A stretch of DNA of 64,000 bases from Natrinema sp. CBA1119 (GTDB lineage: Archaea; Halobacteriota; Halobacteria; Halobacteriales; Natrialbaceae), in assembly GCF_002572525.1 (NCBI RefSeq), contig NZ_PDBS01000001.1, positions 3,906,001 to 3,970,000 of the forward strand, read 5' to 3'. Under the pieces are notes generated by a model. The model saw only the letters and a list, made by a program, of their open reading frames with translations. It was not told where the DNA came from and did not search any database. Below, piece by piece: positions 2,978 to 36,258 of the stretch. Each line of letters opens with the position of its first letter. The stretch's first letter is position 1. The translations under genes were made by a program, and so were the position numbers.

Positions 2978-3158
2978 GTCTCGGCTTTTGGATGCTACTA
3001 CATAAGTTCCGTTCGAAAAATACTTGATGTTGTTGGATAACGATTCGGCGGCTTTCGTATAGTATGCCAACCGATGACGTGTATAACTGCAGAAAACCCC
3101 ACACAGCCAGCGCCGACGCGGTGGCTCTGTAGGGGGTGAAAGTATGAATTATGAGTGG

Positions 3159-3280
3159 AGGCGGCGAAACGGATTTCCCAGAGGCTCGCGCACTCCAGTA
3201 CTCCCCGGAACGCTGGCGAGCTTATCTTCCGTGTTCGGGATGGGTACGGGAGGTACCTCGCCGCTGTGGCCGCCCTAACG
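3159..3280 (-). rRNA. rrf: 5S ribosomal RNA
   Basis: The reverse complement of this segment starts TTAGGGCGGCCACAGCGGCG and contains CCCGTACCCATCCCGAACAC and GCGTTCCGGGGAGTACTGGA, the strongly conserved body of archaeal 5S rRNA; the ends GGCGGCC and the terminal GCCGCC region pair. Length is about 122 nt, normal for haloarchaea. It is the last RNA of the operon, about 125 nt downstream of 23S. I do not find the tRNA-Cys that some haloarchaea carry after 5S. Confidence 0.95.
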
Positions 3281-3331
3281 CCGACCAACGGAATCGAACC
3301 GCTGTCATGCCAATATCGGTGGTGTGTCTCA

Positions 3332-3385
3332 AACCGTGTGTATGTGTAGTCCAGTTTACGTCCGGACCCGTTCTCGCGTCACGGA
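3332..3385 (-). other. 3' arm of the 23S rRNA processing stem
   Basis: In the transcript this strand reads GAGAACGGGTCC, then a short bulge region, then CTGGACTACACATACACACGG. It is complementary to the 5' arm at 6366-6412. Together they form the long helix that closes the 23S precursor, with the interrupted centre expected for archaeal bulge-helix-bulge cleavage by the splicing endonuclease. Confidence 0.8.
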
Positions 3386-3404
3386 TCCAATGCGATGTAA
3401 TGTA

Positions 3405-6325
<2,921 letters not shown>

Positions 6326-6365
6326 CATCGGATCTGAATTGCAACCTGCAGTTGTAATTCAAGAG

Positions 6366-6412
6366 TGACCCGGGAACGGGTCCAGTGGACGCCTGGACTA
6401 CACGTACACACG
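6366..6412 (-). other. 5' arm of the 23S rRNA processing stem
   Basis: The transcript here reads CCGTGTGTACGTGTAGTCCAG, then GCGTCCACT, then GGACCCGTTC. The outer block pairs with CTGGACTACACATACACACGG and the inner block with GAACGGGTCC in the 3' arm. ACT on this side and AAA on the other are left as bulges around a short central helix. This is the archaeal pre-23S cleavage structure. Confidence 0.8.
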
Positions 6413-6553
6413 GTCTCATCTGCACGCCGTAGACGCGGCATGCATTAACCCTTCCCACCCGCGTTTACACGGGGTGGTGCATCGGTTCTGTCGTACTCAA
6501 TCATCGCGCCGTCTCCCACTTAAGGGGCACGATTCGATGATCAGTACGAGACA

Positions 6554-6625
6554 TGGACCCACAGGGATTCGAACCCTGGGCATCCTCCTTGCAAAGGAGG
6601 CACTCTACCACTGAGCTATGGGCCC
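6554..6625 (-). tRNA. tRNA-Ala, anticodon TGC
   Basis: The reverse complement folds as a 72-nt tRNA: acceptor GGGCCCA with TGGGTCC, D arm AGCTCAGTGGTAGAGT, anticodon stem CTCCT/AGGAG with loop TTTGCAA (anticodon TGC), and T arm CAGGG TTCGAAT CCCTG. Discriminator A is present; the CCA end is not encoded. It sits in the 16S-23S spacer, the standard haloarchaeal position. No intron. Confidence 0.97.
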
Positions 6626-6661
6626 ACGCCCGTCTCAATAACGAGACGGGCACGGGAGTTG

Positions 6662-6700
6662 GTGTGAACCTTGGTAGTTCTAAGGTGCCCGATCGGCCAA
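6662..6700 (-). other. 3' arm of the 16S rRNA processing stem
   Basis: The transcript reads GGCCGATCGGGCACC, TTA, GAACTACCAAGGTTCAC. It pairs with the 5' arm at 8367-8407. The 4-bp central helix (GGTG with CACC) is flanked by a 3-nt bulge on each strand (ACG on the 5' side, TTA here), a textbook bulge-helix-bulge for the archaeal splicing endonuclease. Confidence 0.85.
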
Positions 6701-6797
6701 ACGGTGGTCGATCGAACGTGGAACCGCATTGCGATCAGAGATCGCAATTCGTAATCCGCTAAGGTGGGTCAGGCGCGACGGCCTGATCCCGGTCTGT

Positions 6798-8269
<1,472 letters not shown>

Positions 8270-34017: not shown

Positions 34018-34725
34018 TTACCGCGAGCCGACGGGAATTCCGTCGGTGTCGATCGAATCCCGTCGGCCGTCGAGCACCGCGAACCGCTCGTCGCGGCGCG
34101 ACTCGAGCCAATAGAGGAGGCGTTCGGCCCACTCGAGTTTGTGAGCCTTCGCGGGGTCGACCGACGGATCGTCGAAATCCCAGCCGACGAACTCGAGGCG
34201 CGCGGCGCCGACGTGGTCGGCGAGAAACGCCGCGCGGTCGCCGTCGGTGAAGCCGCCGACGTTTCGGACCGGTCCGCGGGGTGCGGCCTGCGTCGTCGGG
34301 AGGACGTACGCAGTGTTACACTCGGGGACGACGTCGCGAATCGCGGCGAGATTATCACCGTGGCCGTGGACCGCGACCGGAGTGCCCCGAGCCGTGAGTC
34401 GCTCGACGGTGTCGGGGTTCTTGTCGAGATCGGTCACCATGCAGTCGACGTCGATACCGCGGCTCGCGAGCGTGTCGACGGCCGTCGACGCGGCGAGGAC
34501 GACGTCGGCCTCCCGCGCTCGCTCGAGGTCCCGCTCGGTCTCGAGCGACGGGCCCGCTCCGGCGATAGCGGCGGTCGCTCCGCCGACGAACGAGAGGTCG
34601 GCGAGATCGAACGACTTCTCGAGAAGCGACGCGAGGAGATCGCGTCCTCGTTCGTCACCGGCACGATCGTAGCCGAAATCGCTGCAGATCGCCTCGTAGA
34701 TGGGCTCCCACTCGTCGAACTCCAT
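34018..34725 (-). CDS. mptE: 6-hydroxymethylpterin diphosphokinase, MptE type
   Basis: The 235-residue protein (start ATG 34725-34723, MEFDEWEP) has the DUF115/MptE pattern. FVGGATAAIAGAGPSLETE is the nucleotide-binding loop, followed by VVLAASTAVDTLASRGIDVDCMVTDLD and VAVHGHGDNL. In archaea MptE puts pyrophosphate on 6-hydroxymethyl-dihydropterin, the step before dihydropteroate synthase. The folP gene lies just upstream on the same strand, which supports the call. A TATA-like TAATATATTCG (34811-34801) lies some 80 bp before the ATG, so it can be transcribed separately from folP. Confidence 0.85.
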   Translation of the reverse strand: MEFDEWEPIYEAICSDFGYDRAGDERGRDLLASLLEKSFDLADLSFVGGATAAIAGAGPSLETERDLERAREADVVLAASTAVDTLASRGIDVDCMVTDLDKNPDTVERLTARGTPVAVHGHGDNLAAIRDVVPECNTAYVLPTTQAAPRGPVRNVGGFTDGDRAAFLADHVGAARLEFVGWDFDDPSVDPAKAHKLEWAERLLYWLESRRDERFAVLDGRRDSIDTDGIPVGSR

Positions 34726-34795
34726 GCTCGGTCTCGTCGCGCTATCGGTTTGTGTGTTCGGTCTCGATCCCGCGTTTCCGGTCATCCGGCTTCAG

Positions 34796-35022
34796 GTGTC
34801 GAATATATTACGTGTTCCGAGTACCGGGTGGGCTATCGGCCAGCACGTCGGTTTCCTCGCGTGGGCGATGGTGTTGTCACTGTGCCGTAAGACAGGTTGT
34901 GGCGTAAGACAGGTCGCAGCATCCCAACCGGGAGTCGTCACTGGTCGGTGTAAGACCACAATAATTCCGTGTTGTGGGCCGGGGGTCGCCTCCAAAGTAC
35001 CCCTACCCGGGAGGCCGCCCGG
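34796..35022 (-). ncRNA. Candidate stable RNA between folP and mptE
   Basis: The gap between folP and mptE is about 340 bp without a convincing gene. On the minus strand, right after the folP stop, there is a strong promoter-like AAGCTTATGCC (about 35060-35050). About 26 nt downstream a GC-rich, heavily structured segment starts (GGACGCCGGGCGGCCTCC). It folds into several helices, including GCCTCC with GGAGGC and CCACAA with TTGTGG around a short loop. A pair of similar words CCTGTCTTACG occurs further along. The mptE TATA lies at the end of the gap. I do not recognise SRP RNA, RNase P RNA or a tRNA in it. The ends are guesses. Confidence 0.4.
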
Positions 35023-35049
35023 CGTCCAGTCTCCCTTTTCGAAGCATCC

Positions 35050-35060
35050 GGCATAAGCTT
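35050..35060 (-). promoter_or_regulatory. Promoter candidate just downstream of folP
   Basis: On the minus strand the stop codon of folP is followed by AGAGAAAGCTTATGCC, where CTTATGCC is a TATA-type element like those used for stable RNAs in haloarchaea. The region transcribed from it would be the structured spacer before mptE. Confidence 0.45.
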
Positions 35061-35064
35061 TCTC

Positions 35065-36258
35065 TTAACGCAGCACCCCTGACAGCTTCCGTCCGATACC
35101 ACTGAGACTGTCATTTTTGGCCGTGAGATCGGTGGCAACGTCAGAAATCGCATCTGTCGATCCCACGATCACGCAGTTCCCGCCGGTCACCCGTCGGACG
35201 ACCGCGCCGTGCTCGAGTGCGACCGTCGTAAGCCGGTCGATCGCGTCGGGTGCAAGGCCATCGATCTCGAGGAGTTGGGGCTGCCAGTCGCCGGCGATCG
35301 CGGGATCGATGCCGCGTTCCCGGAGCTGCGTTCGAAACTCCCGGGTGGAGTGGACGTCCAGTTGCGAGATCGTGAGTCCGTCCGCGGTGACGCTCGCGCG
35401 CTCGGTGAACGCCTTCCCGATCAGGGCTGCGTCCCGCGTTTCGGCCACATCGTGGGTCCGGATCACGTGCGCGCCGCGTTCGACGGCCATCGCCGTCGCC
35501 GCGAGGCTGACCGGGAGTCGCTCCTCGGTCTCCCGGTCCGCGATCTCGCCGAGGAAGTTCTTCCGATTGATCGAGACCAGCATCGGTCGTCCGAGCGCCC
35601 GGAACTCCCGGAGCCGCCGAAACGTCTCGCGGTCGTCCTCGAGCGTCTGGGCCTTGCTCCACCCGCCGAACGCGGGGTCGACGATCGTCTTATCGGTCAG
35701 CCCGTTCTGTTTCAACGCCTCGTAGACCTGATCGACGTAGTCGGCCGTTTCCGCCCAGTCGGGCGACTTCCGGGCCGACCAATCGGTTTCCTCGACCGCT
35801 CCCGGTCGCTCGAGATCCGGCGGGCCCGCCATCTTCGCGACGGCGACGTCGTGCTCCTCGCAGACCCGCGGCATCTCGCGGTCGGCGAAGCCACAGATGT
35901 CGTTGACCATGTCGAACCCCTGCGAGAGGGCCTCGTCGGCGACCTCGGCGTAGCGCGTCTCGATCGAGAAGATCGCATCCCCAGAGACGCTCTCGATCGT
36001 GTCGAGCGCGACGTGTAGCCGCTCGAGTTCCTCGTCGGCCGAGAGCACGTCGAAGCGTTTGTTCGCGGACTCGAGGCCGATATCCACGATGTCGGCCCCT
36101 TCTCCGATTAGCTCCTCGTCGACGTAGCGAGCCGCCTCGCCGGGATCGTCGAAGACGCTCGGATCGTAGGGAGACTCCTCGCTGACGTTCAGTACGCCCA
36201 TGATCCGGGGCGGGTAGTCGTCTCCGATCCCCAGACCGGCGGCGTCGACGCTGTTCAT
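35065..36258 (-). CDS. folP: Dihydropteroate synthase with C-terminal extension
   Basis: The 397-residue protein starts at ATG 36258-36256 (MNSVDAAGLG). The DHPS barrel covers about residues 15-280: PRIMGVLNVSEESPYDPS, GADIVDIGLESANKRF, DMVNDICGFAD, TIVDPAFGGWSKAQ, RPMLVSINRKNFLGEI and VIRTHDVAETRDA. A further 100 residues follow (from about 295: LDVHSTREFRTQLRERGIDP..., ending VIVGSTDAISDVATDLTAKN) with no DHPS counterpart; such an extension is seen in haloarchaeal forms. The enzyme joins p-aminobenzoate to the pterin in folate synthesis. It neighbours mptE. The TATA-like GATATCTTTTT is at about 36290-36280. Confidence 0.88.
   Translation of the reverse strand: MNSVDAAGLGIGDDYPPRIMGVLNVSEESPYDPSVFDDPGEAARYVDEELIGEGADIVDIGLESANKRFDVLSADEELERLHVALDTIESVSGDAIFSIETRYAEVADEALSQGFDMVNDICGFADREMPRVCEEHDVAVAKMAGPPDLERPGAVEETDWSARKSPDWAETADYVDQVYEALKQNGLTDKTIVDPAFGGWSKAQTLEDDRETFRRLREFRALGRPMLVSINRKNFLGEIADRETEERLPVSLAATAMAVERGAHVIRTHDVAETRDAALIGKAFTERASVTADGLTISQLDVHSTREFRTQLRERGIDPAIAGDWQPQLLEIDGLAPDAIDRLTTVALEHGAVVRRVTGGNCVIVGSTDAISDVATDLTAKNDSLSGIGRKLSGVLR

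Follow-up and report, generated by a model that had tools for sequence, protein, structure and literature searches.

A conserved hairpin with its own promoter-like element precedes mptE in most Halobacteriales and is probably a cis-acting leader

The window analysed here, a stretch of 64,000 nucleotides of Natrinema sp. CBA1119, contains a 279-base minus-strand gap between folP and mptE. An earlier note on this DNA had placed a possible stable RNA in the folP-mptE gap. The location is right, with the correction that the minus strand carries all the elements, folP coming first, then the RNA element and then mptE (Table 1). The note had also stated that no protein fits in the gap, which holds on the basis of the list of open reading frames rather than of a search for small ORFs. 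The mptE call may be too long: relatives begin at a conserved MEFDEW whose methionine is residue 21 here, and for this reason the sequence makes 34725 a more likely start than the first ATG at 34785. Just upstream of this conserved start lies GAGACCGAACACACAAACCGATAGC (34741-34766, minus strand), which has no TATA-like word inside it and has near-copies with small changes at a similar place in the genus relatives L002-L005. Elsewhere the window carries one minus-strand rRNA operon (3156-8269), identified with Rfam, in which a tRNA separates 16S from 23S.

Table 1. Features of the folP-mptE locus, in coordinates of the window
Feature	Position	Strand	Basis or remark
folP, dihydropteroate synthase	35065..36258	-	NCBIfam TIGR01496
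RNA promoter: BRE-like AAGAGAAA and TATA-like CTTATG	35050..35066	-	directly 3' of folP stop codon
Conserved RNA unit	34933..35031	-	DNA matches across family; covariance model R1
Hairpin	34975..35028	-	RNAalifold, P3 covariation, covariance model R2
P1	35028-35026/34977-34975	-	
P2	35023-35018/34983-34978	-	
P3	35015-35010/34993-34988	-	
Apical loop GGGUAGGGGUAC, 12 nt, nearly invariant	34997..35008	-	alignments A2, A3, A4
AT-rich tail segment CACGGAATTATTG	34959..34971	-	majority frequency about 0.97-0.99 in family; looser elsewhere
AGTGACGACT element	34933..34942	-	related AGYGACRGCY directly 5' of mptE ATG in many relatives
Two CCTGTCTTACG words	34913-34903 and 34896-34886 (span 34886..34913)	-	outside conserved RNA
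mptE	34018..34785	-	Pfam PF01973; alternative start 34725

Used as a DNA query, the gap has matches in all 29 genomes searched in the genus and in 123 of the 125 in the family. In nearly all of them the match is confined to the half nearer folP and stops at about query position 140 (window 35070-34933). Across 43 loci, column conservation is 0.84-1.00 over 35068-34959 and 0.70-0.84 on to 34929, and collapses beyond. The conserved unit (35068-34933, minus strand) thus runs from a BRE/TATA element through a hairpin, built of three stacked helices, into a conserved tail.

The strong TATA-like element that had been noticed right after folP is confirmed as the BRE/TATA sequence AAGAGAAAGCTTATGCC. 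Its majority frequency is 0.96 at the 43 loci of the window's family, and 162 of the 167 unique leaders have a TTAY word 28-29 nt 5' of the hairpin. The GC-rich segment described at start-site distance from it corresponds to the hairpin (TGGACG...), beginning at 35028. From the TATA spacing we predict a transcript start at about 35031-35028. Transcription would most likely start a few nucleotides 5' of the hairpin, in which case the hairpin opens the transcript. The separate mptE TATA proposed at the far end of the gap is present as the TATA-like word TAATATATT (34810-34802) near the mptE end; L002 and L003 lack it. Some genomes have an AT-rich segment 25-27 nt 5' of the ATG that could be a second promoter.

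The repeated words reported in the gap are real as a pair of CCTGTCTTACG words; they lie outside the conserved unit and are not common to relatives. Since relatives lack the words, and since the window has two such stretches against one in the sister genome L002, the pair looks like a local duplication. An AGY-N4-RCY mini-hairpin (P5) 5' of the ATG, considered by eye, looks likelier to be a sequence motif than a hairpin. A leader peptide encoded in the hairpin was also rejected because the frame is not conserved, NTG..GGGTAG being in frame in 141 of the 166 sequences with that word.

The distribution of the element was followed with two covariance models. Model R1 found it in 270 of 392 Halobacteriales genomes and the hairpin model R2 in 325 of 392 (305 of 345 good-quality genomes and 75 of 95 genera), nearly always in a single copy. 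The hairpin model found none in the roughly 240 genomes from outside Halobacteriales that a sample of 295 from the phylum contained. Scanning 84,980 species genomes with a pattern gave at least 80 loci; among the matches listed, all are haloarchaeal by title. Of 12 pattern matches in viral contigs, the model made none convincing. A further match in the genome that the window comes from (E 0.58) is not credible, and a weak match at L144 and antisense matches at L093 and L107 were treated as false. Conservation in relatives, which the earlier note had set as one part of the test of its proposal, is therefore order-wide, and it comes with compensatory base changes.

The consensus folds with RNAalifold into a single long hairpin. 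Variation within the window's family is too low for testing individual pairs, and the covariance model was then used to reach other families. Beyond the window's family the sequence of P3 varies widely while its pairing persists: 27 distinct P3 helices occur among 40 unique sequences, with G-U pairs tolerated (40 of 493). The pairing score of P3 with its own arms has a mean of 14.85 compared to 11.0 (sd 0.43) with swapped arms, and 0 of 400 swaps were as good. Pairing holds in 91.4% of the cells of alignment A3, where 0 of 500 shuffles attain the observed covariation score; the count of double-change pairs alone is weaker, being attained in 41 of 500 shuffles. The structure tested on A3 was derived from the same sequences, and the controls leave some relatedness. 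In distant members P1 and P2 also show changes by eye. The element thus combines a conserved secondary structure with compensatory changes, as is looked for in a structured leader. The nearly invariant apical loop is seen in alignments A2, A3 and A4; the set of 167 leaders was chosen by a pattern containing the GGGUAGGGGUAC loop and does not count as independent support for its invariance.

Folding energy was rejected as evidence of structure, the window sequence being not clearly better than shuffles (z of -1.3 for the plus and -0.5 for the minus strand of the gap, -1.4 for the hairpin). The segment had been described as well-folding; its folding energy is unremarkable (z -0.5 to -1.4) and its structure is instead backed by conservation and covariation.

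The element is linked to mptE throughout. A same-strand mptE lies directly downstream at all 46 loci of one set, at all 18 strong loci that were newly found and, among the matches listed, at 79 of the 80 named loci, the remaining locus standing at the end of its sequence piece; the three sets overlap and consist of strong matches with a readable downstream side. By comparison folP lies upstream in only 67 of the 80 named loci among the matches listed and is absent there from some loci of the other two sets, so that the mptE linkage holds with or without folP. The position 5' of the same gene on the same strand is constant, as would be looked for in a leader.

Over the 167 leaders the distance from hairpin to mptE start extends from 17 to beyond 200 nt and peaks at 40-50, and the start is often found 25-45 nt past the hairpin. 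In several loci, including named Halobellus and Haloferax ones, the spacing is 25-30 nt, too short to hold a promoter of mptE's own. In the window and many relatives the mptE start is instead 90-280 nt downstream and the unit of about 100 nt is still conserved, an arrangement that would suit a separate RNA too. A terminator-like long stem followed by a T-run was seen by eye between hairpin and ATG in L105, L109, L218 and L246. No switching structure or conserved alternative pairing was noticed in an unsystematic reading of the leaders by eye.

The Halobacteriales search with the hairpin model left 67 genomes with no match. We sampled 20 of these together with G129, whose weak match was judged false, and G192, which has no match; mptE is present in 18 of these 22 RNA-less genomes. 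At 13 of the 17 RNA-less mptE loci with a readable start, a same-strand ORF, several times folP, ends no more than 20 nt upstream. This ORF-gap measure is noisy, as 30 of 167 RNA-bearing loci also score a gap of 20 nt or less, which we put down, not case by case, to chance ORFs in GC-rich DNA. A search of nine RNA-less genomes at looser settings revealed no convincing copy elsewhere. Conversely, inspection of eight genomes with more than one match identified five of one family (L277, L279, L280, L282 and L284) with a second hairpin that has the same loop and no mptE alongside. At least two of these extra copies have the promoter, which in L279 is complete and accompanied by the AGTGACGACG tail. 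Those of L280 and L284 belong to two genomes from the same genus and are similarly located.

These observations make it probable that the element is the structured 5' leader of the mptE mRNA, expressed from its own TATA promoter and regulating mptE in cis. The proposal of a stable RNA was thus partly supported, as regards a structured RNA with a promoter-like element of its own, while a free-standing RNA is less likely than a 5' leader given the mptE linkage, the 25-45 nt spacing and the lack of convincing copies elsewhere in the RNA-less genomes checked. Such an RNA would be a small RNA of about 100 nt acting in trans from its own promoter, its gene being retained beside mptE. What keeps this alternative alive is that the unit is conserved irrespective of mptE distance in the window's family and that five genomes have extra copies away from mptE, and the strong stem and T-run between hairpin and ATG in L105, L109 and L218 would fit it as well. 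We nevertheless consider it unlikely, as every strong match with a readable flank is linked to mptE, several loci have a spacing of 25-30 nt and no convincing copy was found elsewhere in the RNA-less genomes searched; the absence of the element where mptE is packed behind another gene likewise speaks more for a cis leader than for an RNA acting in trans. A guide RNA of the box H/ACA or C/D type is the least credible alternative, with hardly any weight. Haloarchaea do have H/ACA hairpins (PMC2584109) and the CCTGTCTTACG words are able to pair with 23S rRNA. These words are not conserved, however, and we estimate that 14-nt matches to 23S rRNA such as theirs are expected by chance, so that we rejected an rRNA guide. 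The consensus has small internal loops only, with no pseudouridylation pocket, and by eye we saw no C/D boxes, nor the K-turn and ACA box of an H/ACA RNA.

A DNA operator downstream of the TATA box, with no RNA structure involved, would account for the constant distance to the TATA word. It is very improbable since the arms vary with compensatory changes and G-U pairs and since the invariant part is an asymmetric loop rather than the arms. The leader itself may act in more than one way. The nearly invariant loop and the conserved UGGAMGCCGG/CCGGCYCA stem would serve as the binding site of a protein or of a metabolite from the folate or pterin pathway, and the effect would be carried by the variable sequence between hairpin and start codon. 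One sub-case of the leader reading, which shares in its probability and does not add to it, involves no metabolite sensing: the hairpin would be a 5' stabiliser or a protein-binding site for autoregulation. Either role would fit a 5'-terminal position and a stable stem, and archaeal leaders bound by ribosomal proteins have been proposed (PMC7247131); a 12-nt loop invariant across an order nevertheless demands a specific partner, and we regard this sub-case as possible but doubtful. We are slightly more hesitant about a natural riboswitch class, confined to haloarchaea, that senses a pterin or folate metabolite and controls mptE.

Long 5' leaders are few in Haloferax, and leaders with structure have been regarded as atypical for haloarchaea (PMC4983044). 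A folate-pathway gene preceded by a covarying leader in most of an order is a clear exception to this picture, and Haloferax, in which genetics is easy, is a ready target for its study. There we take HVO_2628 to be the mptE orthologue; the part of the literature on HVO_2628 available to us relates the protein to methanopterin-pathway enzymes, calls its function doubtful (PMC8305020) and contains no mention of an RNA that we found. If the leader binds a metabolite, it would help settle the role of the haloarchaeal MptE homologue and would join a very small number of archaeal riboswitches.

The best reading of the element is a new family of structured 5' leaders with no Rfam counterpart. Rfam 15, whose families include THF, folE, crcB, SRP and RNase P among others, reports nothing in the gap at the gathering threshold, in agreement with the early impression that the RNA is neither SRP RNA nor RNase P RNA. 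The bacterial THF, folE/THF-II and ZTP riboswitches stand 5' of one-carbon and folate genes and have a conserved core and a variable downstream part. The putative mptE leader resembles them in its folate-gene position and in having a conserved core with a variable downstream part, and differs in having no Rfam match and in being a single hairpin. Structured ribosomal-protein leaders have been proposed in archaea, including an S15 leader of Halobacteria (PMC7247131). That leader and the predicted mptE leader are both structured haloarchaeal leaders from comparative genomics, set apart by gene (a ribosomal protein gene there, mptE here). The H/ACA sRNA hairpins that haloarchaea possess (PMC2584109) are stable like the hairpin before mptE, whose consensus lacks their guide pocket. 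By 2021 the fluoride (crcB) riboswitch was the sole archaeal riboswitch experimentally shown (PMC8241225); the gene is different and the Rfam scan gave no crcB match, while both it and the predicted mptE leader would be cis-acting structured leaders of archaea.
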